Below are positions 19,971 through 25,677 of a stretch of 64,000 bases of DNA, piece by piece. Location: contig MTMD02000002.1 of assembly GCA_002010065.2 (NCBI GenBank), forward strand, positions 62,001-126,000, in the 5' to 3' direction. This DNA is from Candidatus Pyrohabitans jungbluthii. GTDB lineage: Archaea; Hydrothermarchaeota; Hydrothermarchaeia; Hydrothermarchaeales; BMS3B. Each line of letters starts with the position of its first letter. Position 1 is the stretch's first letter. The notes below the pieces were generated by a model. That model did not search any database. It was given only the letters and a program-made list of their open reading frames with translations, and was not told the origin of the DNA. A program made the position numbers and the translations under genes.

Positions 19971-20219
19971 CTAACTTTTCTCTCTGATCTTAATTAGATA
20001 GATAAATTTCCCGTCCTCTTCACTCATATCTAAGAGCTCATTTCCAGTATGCTTAACCCACGCTGGAATGTCTTTTCTGGTGCCCAAATCAGTGGCTATG
20101 ACCTTTAGAACCTTCCCTGCTTCCATTTTGGATAATGCCTGTTTGACTCTAAAAATTGGCATGGGGCAAGCCATGCCAGAAACATCCAGCACCTCATCAG
20201 CTTCTATCAAGCCTCTCAC
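19971..20219 (-). CDS. TusA-like sulfur carrier
   Basis: 82 residues. The sulfur-accepting cysteine is in the family motif DVSGMACPMPIFRVKQAL; the C-terminal strand DIPAWVKHTGNELL is also typical. TusA proteins carry persulfide sulfur between desulfurases, DsrE-type proteins and acceptors. The start is GTG at 20219, two bases after the dsrE stop; a TTG three codons in is the alternative. Its pairing with dsrE implies a DsrE-TusA relay. A second tusA homolog is at 24231-24461. Confidence 0.88.
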   Translation of the reverse strand: MRGLIEADEVLDVSGMACPMPIFRVKQALSKMEAGKVLKVIATDLGTRKDIPAWVKHTGNELLDMSEEDGKFIYLIKIREKS

Positions 20220-20221
20220 CC

Positions 20222-20638
20222 TCAGAACGTAAGGACGACGTCTGCCTTCTGAGCCTTTTCCAGGAGGAACCAGGTTGCTCCGACGATGTCCTCAGCCTCA
20301 GGCACAAGGTTCTCCTTGGTAACGTCAAAAATCTGCGCAGCAAGGCTGCACACGTACATCCTTACCTTCCCTGTAGCCTTCAGCGCCTTGATAATCTCGT
20401 ACACGTCTGTGGGAAGCCCAGCCTCAGCCACCTTAGCCTTTATCATCTCATCGCTGCCTTCATGCTCCTTTGAGACCTTCAGATTCTCTGCACCACCTTT
20501 TGTCAGTACTCTGGCAGCCCAGTTTACGAACAGTATGTCAACCTCCATGTCAGAGGCGGCCCCGAGGTAGGCGAAAGCCAGAGGGGTCAAAATTCTATCG
20601 TATGCATCTTCCCTTACAATTATTGCCAGTCTCTTCAT
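20222..20638 (-). CDS. DsrE/F-family sulfur-relay protein
   Basis: 138 residues with the flavodoxin-like DsrE fold: N-terminal RLAIIVREDAYDRILTPLAFAYLGAASDMEVDILFVNWAA, and the cysteine-bearing strand KVRMYVCSLAAQIF that aligns with the persulfide-carrying cysteine of the family. It starts 5 bases after AGGAGG. A perfect 16-base palindrome sits 17-32 bases upstream of the start codon, so the TetR protein encoded just upstream probably controls it. The sequence suits the DsrE-like partner of TusA rather than the DsrEFH heterohexamer, whose other subunits are absent here. Confidence 0.85.
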   Translation of the reverse strand: MKRLAIIVREDAYDRILTPLAFAYLGAASDMEVDILFVNWAARVLTKGGAENLKVSKEHEGSDEMIKAKVAEAGLPTDVYEIIKALKATGKVRMYVCSLAAQIFDVTKENLVPEAEDIVGATWFLLEKAQKADVVLTF

Positions 20639-21364: not shown

Positions 21365-22207
21365 CTAGTCAATCATCCCGCCGGCACGCATCGCTCGCCG
21401 TGCTTTCTCAGCTATCTCCTCAGGCACGCGAACCTCTGGTGCGAGGTCTTCAAGGCACCACAACACCTTGGCGGCGTCGGTCAGCTTGTGGTTGCTGCAG
21501 CTTGCGCGCTCACTGGGGAAGTAGAATCGCTTTTCAGGAAACTCCCTCTCAAGGCGGTGCTTCATTCCTATCTCAGTGGCGACGATGAACTCCTCGCTGG
21601 GCGAGGCTCTGATGTGCTCCACCATTTGCTGTGTGTCAAGCACGTGGTCCGCGAGCGCAATCACGTCGCCCCTGCACTGAGGATGGACGAGCACCTCTGC
21701 ATTAGCGTGAGCCTCCTTAAGCCTTGAGACCTCACTGGCGAGAATACGCACATGGGGCGGACAGTACCCTTCAGCGATGATTAAATCTTTGCCGCTGGTG
21801 TTGCGGAGATAGCTCCCCACGTACTGGTCGGGCAGGAATATCGCCTTTTCGTTGAGTTCTGAGAGCACGCGAAGCGCTTTGCTGTGGTTGCATATGTAGT
21901 CGCACGCAGCATACTGCTCTGCCCTGGCTTTAATGTAGCCAACAACCTTCGCCTCGGGTGAGCGTTCTTTAATGCCCGCGATCTGCTCCACGCTCACCAT
22001 AGCCACCATGGGGCAGCGCGCCTCAGCGCTGGGAATGAGCACCTTCTTGTCAGGATTTAAAATCGCAATAAGCTCCGCCATGAAATCAATGCCGCACGCC
22101 ACAACCACGCTTGCATTGCTCTTCTGGGCAAAAAGGGCACATTCGAATTTATTCCCCACGAAGTCCGCTAAGTCCTGCACATCACCGGGTTGAAAATTGT
22201 GCGCCAC
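21365..22207 (-). CDS. nadA: quinolinate synthase
   Basis: NadA condenses iminoaspartate with dihydroxyacetone phosphate to quinolinate and carries a [4Fe-4S] cluster. The three cluster cysteines appear in ARCPMVAM, HPQCRGDV and ERASCSN; the AHNFQPGDVQDLADFVG N-terminal motif is present. The GTG at 22207 is the first canonical start, but it begins inside the first conserved strand. The same frame continues upstream for 19 more sensible residues (IEKLKEEHNAII) to an ATA at 22262-22264 with no ATG/GTG/TTG, so the true start may be non-canonical. It overlaps or abuts the end of the IscU-like gene, fitting Fe-S delivery. Confidence 0.9.
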   Translation of the reverse strand: MAHNFQPGDVQDLADFVGNKFECALFAQKSNASVVVACGIDFMAELIAILNPDKKVLIPSAEARCPMVAMVSVEQIAGIKERSPEAKVVGYIKARAEQYAACDYICNHSKALRVLSELNEKAIFLPDQYVGSYLRNTSGKDLIIAEGYCPPHVRILASEVSRLKEAHANAEVLVHPQCRGDVIALADHVLDTQQMVEHIRASPSEEFIVATEIGMKHRLEREFPEKRFYFPSERASCSNHKLTDAAKVLWCLEDLAPEVRVPEEIAEKARRAMRAGGMID

Positions 22208-22256: not shown

Positions 22257-22634
22257 TTAGCTATACTCCTGCCCCCTGTAGTTGGCGATCGCCTTCTTCA
22301 GAGCGCGCACGCCAACTTCCTTGCAGCACCTGTTTATCTCAGGTAAGCCCCCCGCGGCGCGCTCTATATCGGCTAAGCCAAGCTCAGCCGCCTCCTTCAC
22401 GCTCTTACCCTCTGCCAGGCTTGCCAGTATTTCGCTGCTTGCTATGGCGGCGGCGCAGTTGTACGCCTGGAAGCGCGCCTCCTTTATCACGTCACCCTCA
22501 ACTTTGATGTAAAACTCCACCTCGTCGTCGCAGAGGGGGTGTACTTCTTTGCCCACGCCGCTGGCATCGCTCAGCATGCCCTCATGCCTAGCCTCGCGAA
22601 GTATTCGAGCGACCTCTTCACCCCTCAGAGGCAT
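22257..22634 (-). CDS. second IscU-like Fe-S scaffold paralog
   Basis: 125 residues. It keeps the IscU cysteine positions in altered contexts: VHPLCDDEVEF (versus NPACGD), YNCAAAIASSEI and GLPEINRCCKEVG. The invariant Asp next to the first cysteine is present. It overlaps the canonical iscU by 17 bases. Paralogous scaffolds adjacent to iscU are unusual; it could be a specialised or regulatory scaffold for the downstream nadA. The CC pair at the third site is a further oddity. Confidence 0.8.
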   Translation of the reverse strand: MPLRGEEVARILREARHEGMLSDASGVGKEVHPLCDDEVEFYIKVEGDVIKEARFQAYNCAAAIASSEILASLAEGKSVKEAAELGLADIERAAGGLPEINRCCKEVGVRALKKAIANYRGQEYS

Positions 22635-23025
22635 CTCCCTTCCCCGCTTTTTTCTTCTTGTAGTCCTCGATTGCTGCCTTCAAGCCATCGCTGGCGAGAA
22701 GCGAGCAGTGCATCTTTATCGGCGGGAGCCCGCCAACCGCGTCGGCGACATCCTCTTTGCTTATCTTCGCCGCCTCCTCCAGGGTTTTGCCCTTGGCAAG
22801 CTCCGTCACCATGCTACTCGTGCCTATTGCTGCGGCACAGCCAAAGGTCTCAAACTTTATGTCCTCGATTATCTCCTCGCCCTTTTCGTTCTTCCCGACT
22901 TTAATGTAGATGTACATCACGTCCCCGCACGCGGGGTTTCCCACCTTGCCCACGCCGTCGGGGTTCTCCATCCTCCCCATATTCCTGGGGTTTCTAAAGT
23001 GGTCTATCAAGGTTTTGCTATACAT
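22618..23025 (-). CDS. iscU: Fe-S cluster scaffold IscU
   Basis: 135 residues. All three scaffold cysteines are in standard motifs: GNPACGDVM, FGCAAAIGTSS and MHCSLLASDG. The N-terminal YSKTLIDHFRNPRNMG is the archetypal IscU/NifU start. The product assembles [2Fe-2S]/[4Fe-4S] clusters on sulfur delivered by IscS. The start overlaps the end of iscS by 8 bases, so the pair is translationally coupled. The C-terminus is Lys/Gly-rich (KKKKAGKGDASEG). Confidence 0.95.
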   Translation of the reverse strand: MYSKTLIDHFRNPRNMGRMENPDGVGKVGNPACGDVMYIYIKVGKNEKGEEIIEDIKFETFGCAAAIGTSSMVTELAKGKTLEEAAKISKEDVADAVGGLPPIKMHCSLLASDGLKAAIEDYKKKKAGKGDASEG

Positions 23026-24229
23026 GGCAGTGCTCGCCTCCTTTCCATTCTGTTCCCTCTACGTAATCCTCAAAGCTGTCCTTAAATGGCGATATATCGC
23101 GCAGGCGCTTAACCACGCGGGGCAGGACTTCAAGCAGGCGCTGCACATCTTCGCGGGTGGAAAACCTGCCAAGCGTGACGCGAAGCGAACCATGCGCCTC
23201 GGCGTGGCTCAGCCCTATCGCCGTTAAAACATGGCTCGGCTCAAGCGTTGGCGAGGAGCACGCGCTGCCTGTGCTCGCGCTTATGCCCTCGAAGTCCAGC
23301 TCCAGTATCAACCCCTCGCCCTCTATGAATGCAAAGGCGAAGTTCGCGTTGCCGGGGAGGCGCTGCTTGGGATGCCCGTTTAAGCGGGTGCGCGGTATCT
23401 TCAGCACCTCCTTAATAAGCTCGTCTCGAAGTTTTGTCAGGCGCTCCGTTTCGTCCTTCATCTCTTTCTTCGCTATCTCCGCTGCCTTGCCAAAGCCAAC
23501 TATGCCGGGGACGTTCTCAGTGCCGGAGCGCAGCTTTCTCTCCTGCCCGCCTCCATGAAACAGGGGCTCAAGTCTTGTGCCCCTAGCTACGAAGAGGGCG
23601 CCTATGCCCTTGGGACCATACATCTTGTGTGCACTCATGGCGAGCATGTCCACGCCAAGCTCTTCAACGTCTATCGCCACCTGACCGTTGCTTATGCACG
23701 CGTCGCTGAAGAAGGCAACGCCCTTATCCTGCGCCACCTCCGCAAGCTCCTTTATGGGCTCTATTGTACCTATCTCGTTGTTTGCGTGGTTGATTATGGC
23801 TAAGATGGTATCGCTGTTAATTGCATCCTCCAGCGTCTCGGGCTTAACGAGACCATATTCGTCCACATCTAGGTAAGAAACCTCAAACCCCTGCTTCTCG
23901 AGCCAACGGCACGCCTCAAGCACAGCAAAGTGCTCTATCTTGGAAACAACTATATGCTTTCCCTTGTTCTTATTCTTCAGCGCAAACCCCTTTATGGCAA
24001 GGTTGCACGCCTCTGTGCCGCCAGAGGTGAAGATTATCTCCTCGGGCGAGGCGTTTATCAGCTCAGCAACCTTAGCTCGAGCCTCCTCTACGGCTGCCTT
24101 TGCCTCCTGCCCAAATGAGTAAAAGCTGGTTGGGTTGCCGTACTTCTCAGTGAAGTAGGGCAGCATCGCCTCAACCACGCGTTCGTCCACCGGCGTAGTC
24201 GAGGCGTAGTCGAGGTACACTCTCCTCAT
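23018..24229 (-). CDS. iscS: cysteine desulfurase IscS
   Basis: 403 residues. It is a PLP aminotransferase-fold desulfurase with YLDYASTTPVDERV at the start, FTSGGTEACNLAIKG, the PLP lysine in MSAHKMYGPKGIG, and the mobile-loop catalytic cysteine in STGSACSSP. It removes sulfur from L-cysteine as a persulfide and hands it to IscU or TusA. The C-terminus ends in histidine/cysteine (GGEHCHV). It lies between tusA and iscU, and upstream on the same strand is a paralog lacking the PLP lysine. Confidence 0.95.
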   Translation of the reverse strand: MRRVYLDYASTTPVDERVVEAMLPYFTEKYGNPTSFYSFGQEAKAAVEEARAKVAELINASPEEIIFTSGGTEACNLAIKGFALKNKNKGKHIVVSKIEHFAVLEACRWLEKQGFEVSYLDVDEYGLVKPETLEDAINSDTILAIINHANNEIGTIEPIKELAEVAQDKGVAFFSDACISNGQVAIDVEELGVDMLAMSAHKMYGPKGIGALFVARGTRLEPLFHGGGQERKLRSGTENVPGIVGFGKAAEIAKKEMKDETERLTKLRDELIKEVLKIPRTRLNGHPKQRLPGNANFAFAFIEGEGLILELDFEGISASTGSACSSPTLEPSHVLTAIGLSHAEAHGSLRVTLGRFSTREDVQRLLEVLPRVVKRLRDISPFKDSFEDYVEGTEWKGGEHCHV

Positions 24230-24230
24230 C

Positions 24231-24461
24231 TTAAACTTTCCTCCTTATGTACGCTTTTATTATCCCGCCTTCTCGCGCATAGCCAAGATACTCGTTCCCG
24301 GTTACACGGCACCAGGCAGGGAGGTCTTCAATTATATCTTCGTCGTCTGCAACTATCTCCAGAACTTCCCCGACGGCAAGCTTTTGCAAAGCTTCGCCAG
24401 CCTTTGCGAGAGGCACAGGGCAGTGCATACCCACGCAGTCCACGCTGAGCTTTGCCTTCAT
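24231..24461 (-). CDS. TusA-like sulfur carrier (second copy)
   Basis: 76 residues. The motif VDCVGMHCPVPLAKAGEALQKL carries the acceptor cysteine, and DLPAWCRVTGNEYLG matches the TusA C-terminal strand with an extra cysteine. It is one base upstream of iscS and overlaps the end of the NifS-like gene by 4 bases. In this position it probably receives persulfide from IscS. Confidence 0.88.
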   Translation of the reverse strand: MKAKLSVDCVGMHCPVPLAKAGEALQKLAVGEVLEIVADDEDIIEDLPAWCRVTGNEYLGYAREGGIIKAYIRRKV

Positions 24462-25594
24462 CTCTCCCGCAACCTGTTTATAACCTCCCCCGCCTCCTGC
24501 GCAACCCGCGCTACGTCTGCCTCGCTCGTGGGGATGCCGAAGGAGAAGAGCATGGCACCGCGGATTAGCTCCTGGGATAAGCCCATCGCCGCAAGCACGT
24601 GGCTCGCCTTCGCTGCTCGAGCCATGCAGGGCGAACCCGAGGTTATGTATATTCCTCGTGAGCTGAGCTCAGCCACGACAGCCTCGCCCTCTACCCCAGG
24701 GACGCTAATGTGCACATACATGGGGTTAACTTCGCTCGGGTGCCCGTTTATCTTGGCTTCGGGCACCTCACGGCGCAGCGCCTCTATAAACTTGCTCCTC
24801 AGCGTGCGCAGCTTCTCTAGGCGCTGCGACATCTCCCTCTCAGCCAGCTCTGCTGCCTTTCCCATGCCCACTATTCCTGCGACGTTTTCGGTGCCCGCTC
24901 TGTAACCGCGCTCTTGTATGCCGCCCTCTATCTGGGGCAGAAGCCTTACTCCACGAGCTAAATAAAGCGCTCCCACACCCTTAGGGCCATAGAAGCGGTG
25001 CGCCGAAAGGGTGTAGATATCTACGCCCAGCTCTTCCACCTTAGCGGGCACTATGCCAGCGGCGCTGACGCCGTCGCAGTGAAATGTTATCCCCCGCTCC
25101 TCGGCGATTTCGGCAATCTCCTTAATCGGCTGGAGGGTGCCCACCTCGTGGTTGGCGTGCTGCACAGAGATTAAAATCGTGTCGTCGCGAATCGCCTTCT
25201 CAAGCTCCTCCACGTTAACGCGGCCGTGCTCGTCAACGCCCACGCGGGTAACCTGCACCCCCTCGCGGGCTAAGCTCTGGAGCGGATGCATTATGGAGTA
25301 GTGCTCCACCGCAGAGATAACCACATGCCTCCCCCTCGCCTTATTAGCCTGAATCACGCCTTTAATCGCTAAGTTGTTTGCCTCCGCCCCGCCGGAGGTG
25401 AAGACTATCTCCTCGCTCCTCGCCCCCAAAAGCTGGGCTACCTTCTCCCTTGCCCCCTCCACAGCGCGCCTCGCTTTGAGCGCAAAGTCGTGCAGATTGG
25501 AGGGGTTCGCGTAGAGCTCGTCGAAGTACGGAAGCATCTCCTGCTTTACCTCTTGCAGCACAGGAGTAGAAGAGGCGTAGTCTGCGTAAATCAT
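24458..25594 (-). CDS. NifS/IscS-like protein lacking the PLP lysine
   Basis: 378 residues from the ATG at 25594; the alternative ATG at 25627 adds 11 residues. The desulfurase fold is intact: MIYADYASSTPV, FTSGGAEANNLAIKG, and a cysteine in TSGSPCMARA at the mobile loop. But the PLP-binding SAHK motif reads SAHRFYGPKG, with Arg (codon CGC on the minus strand, bases 24995-24997, about residue 200). Without that Lys a normal Schiff base is impossible. The A. fulgidus IscS also lacks this lysine and supplies a cluster ligand. Here a canonical iscS is also present. It may be a non-catalytic cluster or scaffold partner. Confidence 0.85.
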   Translation of the reverse strand: MIYADYASSTPVLQEVKQEMLPYFDELYANPSNLHDFALKARRAVEGAREKVAQLLGARSEEIVFTSGGAEANNLAIKGVIQANKARGRHVVISAVEHYSIMHPLQSLAREGVQVTRVGVDEHGRVNVEELEKAIRDDTILISVQHANHEVGTLQPIKEIAEIAEERGITFHCDGVSAAGIVPAKVEELGVDIYTLSAHRFYGPKGVGALYLARGVRLLPQIEGGIQERGYRAGTENVAGIVGMGKAAELAEREMSQRLEKLRTLRSKFIEALRREVPEAKINGHPSEVNPMYVHISVPGVEGEAVVAELSSRGIYITSGSPCMARAAKASHVLAAMGLSQELIRGAMLFSFGIPTSEADVARVAQEAGEVINRLRER

Positions 25595-25677
25595 TCTCCT
25601 CGCCTGAATAACGCTGCTCCTTCCCATCGCAAAATTGTTTGGAAAGGTTTAAGCAGCTTTAGTCAACATTCTGGTGC

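Follow-up and report, generated by a model that had tools for sequence, protein, structure and literature searches.

Lysine-less IscS-like proteins encoded beside tusA: candidates for a TusA-fed sulfur relay in Fe-S cluster building

The IscS of A. fulgidus has no desulfurase activity and instead contributes a Cys as ligand to the cluster carried by IscU; in the crystal of the IscS–IscU complex, it is the loop Cys that ligates the [2Fe-2S] cluster (PMC7585200; PDB 4EB5/4EB7). The IscS1 of Methanosarcina acetivorans is also without the catalytic lysine, and an A. fulgidus-like role has been suggested for it by its authors (PMC7585200). Both proteins are precedents for a lysine-less IscS, the likeness of the second to the protein studied here being drawn from its published description. 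In contrast, E. coli IscS, although it shares the same fold, is a true PLP desulfurase from which sulfur passes to TusA. It binds TusA and IscU around its Cys loop (PMC2854127) and on different sites (PMC2854127; PMC11302665), with TusA held by one subunit while meeting the Cys loop of the other, so that the loop Cys lies ~4 Å from the TusA Cys in the crystal (PMC2854127). TusA is also found beside Cys-bearing DsrE-type proteins in the relays of sulfur-metabolising prokaryotes; the known relays differ in feeding dissimilatory sulfur enzymes via DsrC (PMC3397948), with no IscS-like protein alongside IscU.

Here, we describe NifS-R, a lysine-less IscS-like protein encoded in a window of 64,000 nucleotides from Candidatus Pyrohabitans jungbluthii (Hydrothermarchaeota; contig MTMD02000002.1, positions 62,001 to 126,000), together with a survey of its homologs in loci of 4-14 kb, for which 532 genomes were searched in all. 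The main new result is that lysine-less IscS proteins form a class whose genes are linked to tusA.

The nifS-R locus and its product

The nifS-R gene (24458..25627, minus strand) encodes a protein of 389 amino acids (P0001) and runs from an ATG at 25627 to a stop at 24458; the first-pass annotation had the stop right but began the gene at 25594, which is the internal Met12. Read along the minus strand, the genes are nifS-R, tusA, iscS, iscU1, iscU2, nadA, a TetR-like gene, dsrE and a second tusA, in agreement with the tusA-iscS-iscU-iscU2-nadA cluster noted earlier, with nifS-R upstream of tusA. The first tusA (24231..24461, minus strand; PF01206, 6.5e-21) encodes a CPxP motif, overlaps the end of nifS-R by 4 bp and is kept as its neighbor in two of the family's three genera. 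It is followed by a canonical iscS (23018..24229, minus strand), two genes downstream of nifS-R, whose product (P0002) has the PLP lysine Lys202 in the motif SAHKMYGPKG, Arg350 and loop Cys324. Beyond it lie iscU1 (22618..23025, minus strand), with three Cys, the Asp and the N-terminal Tyr all present, and iscU2 (22257..22634, minus strand; PF01592, 1.5e-25), a divergent paralog with three Cys and the Asp that occurs in the cluster of all three genera. Thus, nifS-R is not directly beside iscU, since iscS stands between them, and both iscU genes belong to the same cluster. The conserved next gene is nadA (21365..22207, minus strand), which encodes the Fe-S enzyme quinolinate synthase, and further along are a gene for a DsrE-family protein (20222..20638, minus strand; PF02635, 1e-9, and PF13686, 1.2e-11) and, adjoining it, the second tusA (19971..20219, minus strand; PF01206, 4.1e-24).

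Some of these neighbors have unusual residues of their own. In IscU2 of the window, Cys replaces the conserved His and the N-terminal Tyr is missing. The canonical IscS carries Ile179 at the position of the PLP-contacting Gln, which is Gln in 92% of Lys-type homologs, and Phe174 at a position that is His in 96% of them.

To our knowledge, all active members of the NifS/IscS family have the PLP lysine. At this position NifS-R has Arg211, encoded by CGC (24995..24997, minus strand) within the motif LSAHRFYGPKG, as the first-pass annotation had read it. Two further positions are altered: Leu360 (24548..24550, minus strand) aligns with E. coli Arg354, the Arg that holds the substrate carboxylate, a position that is Arg in 95% of Lys-type proteins, and Ser188 aligns with E. 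coli Gln183, the Gln that contacts the PLP ring hydroxyl, a position that is Gln in 92% of Lys-type proteins. Cys334 of the mobile loop (24626..24628, minus strand; motif TSGSPC) is retained and is invariant. The fold also persists, as had been proposed: the AlphaFold2 model (pLDDT 92.4, pTM 0.90) has the overall IscS fold and superimposes on the A. fulgidus IscS structures with an rmsd of 1.2-1.3 Å (Foldseek; 4R5F, 1.2 Å) and on E. coli IscS with a TM of about 0.91 (1P3W, 3LVJ). NifS-R misses the cut-off of the TIGR03402 NifS equivalog (439.6 bits vs. 530.75), whereas the neighboring IscS clears it (539.3 bits).

A sequencing error at the Arg codon had been named as a possible pitfall. However, each of the five genomes of the genus has Arg at this position, as do three genomes from a second genus, with CGC, CGG and AGG as the codons across those eight genomes (CGG or AGG in the second genus), and two genomes of a third genus have His (CAC), so that all ten ortholog sequences checked have Arg or His and none has Lys; the ortholog in JdFR-17 is 97% identical. 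Between close relatives, dN/dS is 0.10-0.13 for nifS-R and 0.05-0.08 for iscS, and nifS-R is thus under purifying selection. Since Arg is kept through three codons in eight genomes at a dN/dS of ~0.1, and the fold is predicted with high confidence, the chance that nifS-R is a sequencing error or a decaying pseudogene is practically nil.

Residues lost and kept among lysine-less proteins

To place these substitutions in the family, two well-supported lysine-less clades, clade I (19 rows, including NifS-R) and clade II (15 rows, including A. fulgidus), were examined at the columns that are conserved at >80% among 74 Lys-type rows. Few positions were altered in both clades, and among them were the PLP lysine, the Gln and the Arg. 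The Gln was found in 92% of Lys-type rows vs. 0/19 and 0/15 in clades I and II, the Arg in 95% vs. 0/19 and 0/15, and Lys at the PLP position in 1/19 and 0/15. Conversely, the loop Cys was present in 19/19 and 15/15 rows (34/34). With Lys, Gln and Arg lost and the loop Cys kept, the machinery for binding and cutting cysteine is therefore gone and the sulfur-carrying Cys retained. The absence of desulfurase chemistry in NifS-R is well supported by these residue patterns, and we hold with high confidence that it is not a normal desulfurase.

Lysine-less proteins largely retain the PLP-stacking His and the Asp, and a few members of clade I carry Lys. NifS-R could accordingly be imagined as still a PLP enzyme that holds PLP without a Schiff base, in which Arg211 or some other residue stands in for the lysine and the substrate is cysteine or a different compound. 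Yet the Arg and Gln are also gone, two orthologs in a sister genus are without the stacking His (EQ), and A. fulgidus IscS is without desulfurase activity (PMC7585200), which leaves this reading extremely improbable. The Lys-bearing clade I members are from Nitrospirota (L140, L142, L144, L148, L150 and L158), and most are tusA-linked; in L144, which was checked, Lys is present while Arg and Gln are absent.

In a careful tree from which the trait columns had been masked, lysine-less proteins fell in three places: clade I (support 99/98), clade II (99/97) and a further set, supported at 93/95, in which the Arg is kept and the link to tusA is only partial; the Thr forms L285-L289, from the same archaeal phylum as A. 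fulgidus, belong to this third set. A quick tree also set clades I and II apart, but a tree uniting them scored 82 units higher, and a single origin of the two clades was not rejected (p-AU 0.30), though the masked tree separates them. Because the quick, united and masked trees disagree and one origin is not rejected, we place the number of lysine losses at two to four and claim no firm number.

The first-pass annotation had drawn a comparison with A. fulgidus, which is apt because the A. fulgidus protein has lost the same three residues. A. fulgidus IscS2 (PDB 4EB5, 4EB7, 4HVK; D199K mutant, 4R5F) has the IscS fold, is 42% identical to NifS-R by structural alignment, and has Asp199, Leu347 and Ala176 at the Lys, Arg and Gln positions, with the loop Cys kept. 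It differs in having Asp and the motif SSND rather than Arg and SAHR, in falling in a separate clade of the tree (with the single origin above not rejected), and in its surroundings, as a Lys-type IscS is encoded next door in the window genome while none is seen in A. fulgidus.

Linkage to tusA, dsrE and iscU

To quantify the association with tusA, a gene was scored as linked when tusA lay on the same strand within ≤800 bp, using 90%-identity representatives with full flanks. Among these, 69/79 lysine-less genes were linked vs. 9/126 Lys genes (Fisher p = 3e-33, uncorrected for shared ancestry), and the difference was retained among representatives at 70% identity (27/34 vs. 6/84), 60% identity (16/22 vs. 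4/46) and 50% identity (9/12 vs. 3/23), although these statistics rest on ~2-4 origins of lysine loss and phylogenetically independent pairs are too few for significance. Four of the nine tusA-linked Lys genes are the iscS of the nifS-R/iscS double cassette itself. When 28 genomes carrying both kinds of gene were considered, tusA stood only at the lysine-less copy in 24, only at the Lys copy in none and at neither in 4. The 0/28 at Lys-type copies in the same genomes rules out chance or query bias behind the link. Similarly, of 49 genes taken from a single phylum of Lys-type carriers, none had tusA. Our literature searches, for which most subscription journals fell outside coverage, returned no report of a TusA link to a lysine-less IscS.

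The linked TusA proteins have CPxP in 62/75 cases by strict motif. A DsrE-like gene was nearby in 29/79 lysine-less vs. 1/126 Lys cases, and the DsrE-like protein has one invariant Cys. Many archaeal cassettes consist of tusA, dsrE, iscS and iscU, including that of A. fulgidus IscS1, and a Nitrospirae cassette (L019) has the order rrf2, nifS, iscU, tusA, with the gene for an Rrf2-family regulator first. The iscU gene adjoins 63/79 lysine-less genes, and the linked IscU proteins keep the three Cys, Asp, His and N-terminal Tyr in 67-68/68 cases. In A. fulgidus, iscU is adjacent to IscS2, which is without an adjacent tusA; upstream of the paralog of IscS2, 87% identical to it, lie both tusA and dsrE.

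A second lysine-less paralog is encoded in the window genome on another contig (C8). This Thr form, NifS-T (SAHTMYGPKG), directly follows its own tusA in the window genome and its relatives and in this family has no iscU beside it. At the NifS-T locus (L003, L075), a CopZ-like protein with zinc, BFD-like [2Fe-2S] and HMA domains is encoded nearby.

The lack of iscU beside NifS-T would suit a sulfur branch outside Fe-S clusters, in which the lysine-less protein would be a TusA adaptor in the thiolation of tRNA or for molybdenum cofactor or some other thiolated product, and E. coli TusA does serve both tRNA thiolation and the molybdenum cofactor (PMC11302051). However, the adjacency of iscU with intact ligands at 63/79 lysine-less genes, and the presence of nadA and an Rrf2 gene in cassettes, make such a branch very unlikely.

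Lysine-less proteins of the NifS/IscS family extend to further archaeal phyla and to several phyla of bacteria. The nearest bacterial homologs found are also without the lysine and come from Nitrospirae, Syntrophomonadaceae, Endomicrobia, Aminicenantes and others, with Gln, Val, Ala, Leu or Ser at the lysine position. One large archaeal phylum has mostly Asp forms, and both IscS of A. fulgidus (G508; 100% identical to the PDB chain) are Asp forms. In a search with a sufS model, which detected lysine-less forms at 1e-40 or better, 7/8 Archaeoglobi genomes, including A. fulgidus, had lysine-less forms only and no Lys-bearing IscS or SufS; the eighth genome (G488) had one further distant relative.

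This distribution bears on another proposal of the first-pass annotation, that NifS-R is a dedicated non-desulfurase scaffold or a heterodimer partner of the adjacent IscS. Of this, the dedicated protein without desulfurase chemistry is borne out by the loss of Lys, Arg and Gln under purifying selection. As partner or regulator, NifS-R would be the inactive subunit beside an active one and would carry the TusA site. For this speak the sharing of one cluster by nifS-R and Lys-type iscS in three genera, the arrangement in E. coli, where TusA sits on one subunit and reaches the Cys loop of its partner (PMC2854127), and the trypanosomatid deoxyhypusine synthase, a known case of a dead paralog activating its partner (PMC3663545). 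Yet the second lysine-less paralog of the window genome stands elsewhere, alone with tusA, and the heterodimer fails as a general explanation because most lysine-less cassettes are without a Lys-type nifS and, in the sufS-model search, neither IscS nor SufS of Lys type turned up in 7/8 Archaeoglobi genomes. We therefore consider a heterodimer with canonical IscS improbable for NifS-R and limit it to this family, where both genes share a cluster. The canonical IscS next door is a local feature, and what had looked like an exception of the A. fulgidus kind belongs to a broad class linked to TusA. The consistent link to tusA (with dsrE in archaea), the second lysine-less paralog and the wide bacterial distribution were all absent from the first-pass annotation.

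Proposed sulfur flow and further lysine-less sets

Since a lysine-less IscS cannot load its own Cys and TusA is its constant neighbor, the simplest reading is that sulfur flows in reverse. TusA would be charged elsewhere, with inorganic sulfur via DsrE or rhodanese or, in this organism, possibly by the neighboring IscS. The persulfide would then leave the CPxP cysteine of TusA for loop Cys334 of NifS-R, opposite to the transfer from IscS to TusA in E. coli, and the mobile loop would hand the sulfur to IscU, or Cys334 would become a ligand to the [2Fe-2S] cluster under assembly, as happens in A. fulgidus. Here, we infer the direction of sulfur flow, the donor and the product. Judged on sequence, NifS-R as an IscS-fold non-desulfurase that acts as a TusA-fed sulfur relay, or as a docking or ligand platform, for the IscU scaffold is a proposal in which our confidence is evenly balanced. 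For the class as a whole, dead versions of IscS beside tusA, and usually iscU, probably hand on TusA-derived sulfur in Fe-S cluster building.

A pure ligand role needs no sulfur transfer through NifS-R, which would dock IscU and lend Cys334 as a temporary [2Fe-2S] ligand without ever carrying sulfur, while sulfur would reach IscU directly from TusA or as free sulfide. The A. fulgidus IscS–IscU complex is a precedent (PMC7585200; PDB 4EB5/4EB7), and the invariant loop Cys and intact IscU ligands agree with it; alone, however, it leaves the linkage to tusA and dsrE unexplained, and we regard it as rather unlikely. The behavior of A. fulgidus IscS fits either a relay or a pure ligand role. Several observations are counted against the relay: A. 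fulgidus IscS2 is without the adjacent tusA that its paralog has; nifS-R in the window is not beside iscU, nor is the NifS-T gene in this family; the third lysine-less set keeps Arg and is partly tusA-linked; and Lys without Arg or Gln occurs in some clade I proteins from Nitrospirota, L140 and L144 among them.

With these results, A. fulgidus IscS, until now a single odd case, becomes one of a widespread class with TusA as its common genomic partner, a class that points to a sulfur donor other than cysteine. More tentatively, and with slightly less than even confidence, we propose that archaea and several bacterial phyla may have a cysteine-independent ISC-type assembly in which a dead IscS, charged by TusA (with DsrE), would relay persulfide from inorganic sulfur to IscU, and that in Archaeoglobi this may be the sole NifS-family route. 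If true, the relay would be the IscS–TusA transfer in reverse, and the sulfur source for Fe-S clusters in anaerobic archaea and deep-branching bacteria is now directly testable with small soluble proteins. The class also carries a warning that many annotated cysteine desulfurases are not desulfurases.

Further loci differ in arrangement or motif. In L049 and L083, two lysine-less nifS genes, a Thr form and then a Leu form, stand in tandem after an iscU-like gene and tusA. In a separate lysine-less set (L181, L193 and L194), the PLP lysine is replaced by Arg or Val and iscU is present without tusA, while Arg360 is kept. Finally, in an archaeal Lys-type set (L195, L197, L198 and L290), the glycine-rich motif is replaced by GQ-x-LW; the three members placed on the tree have lost both the Arg and the Gln, and one member has tusA.
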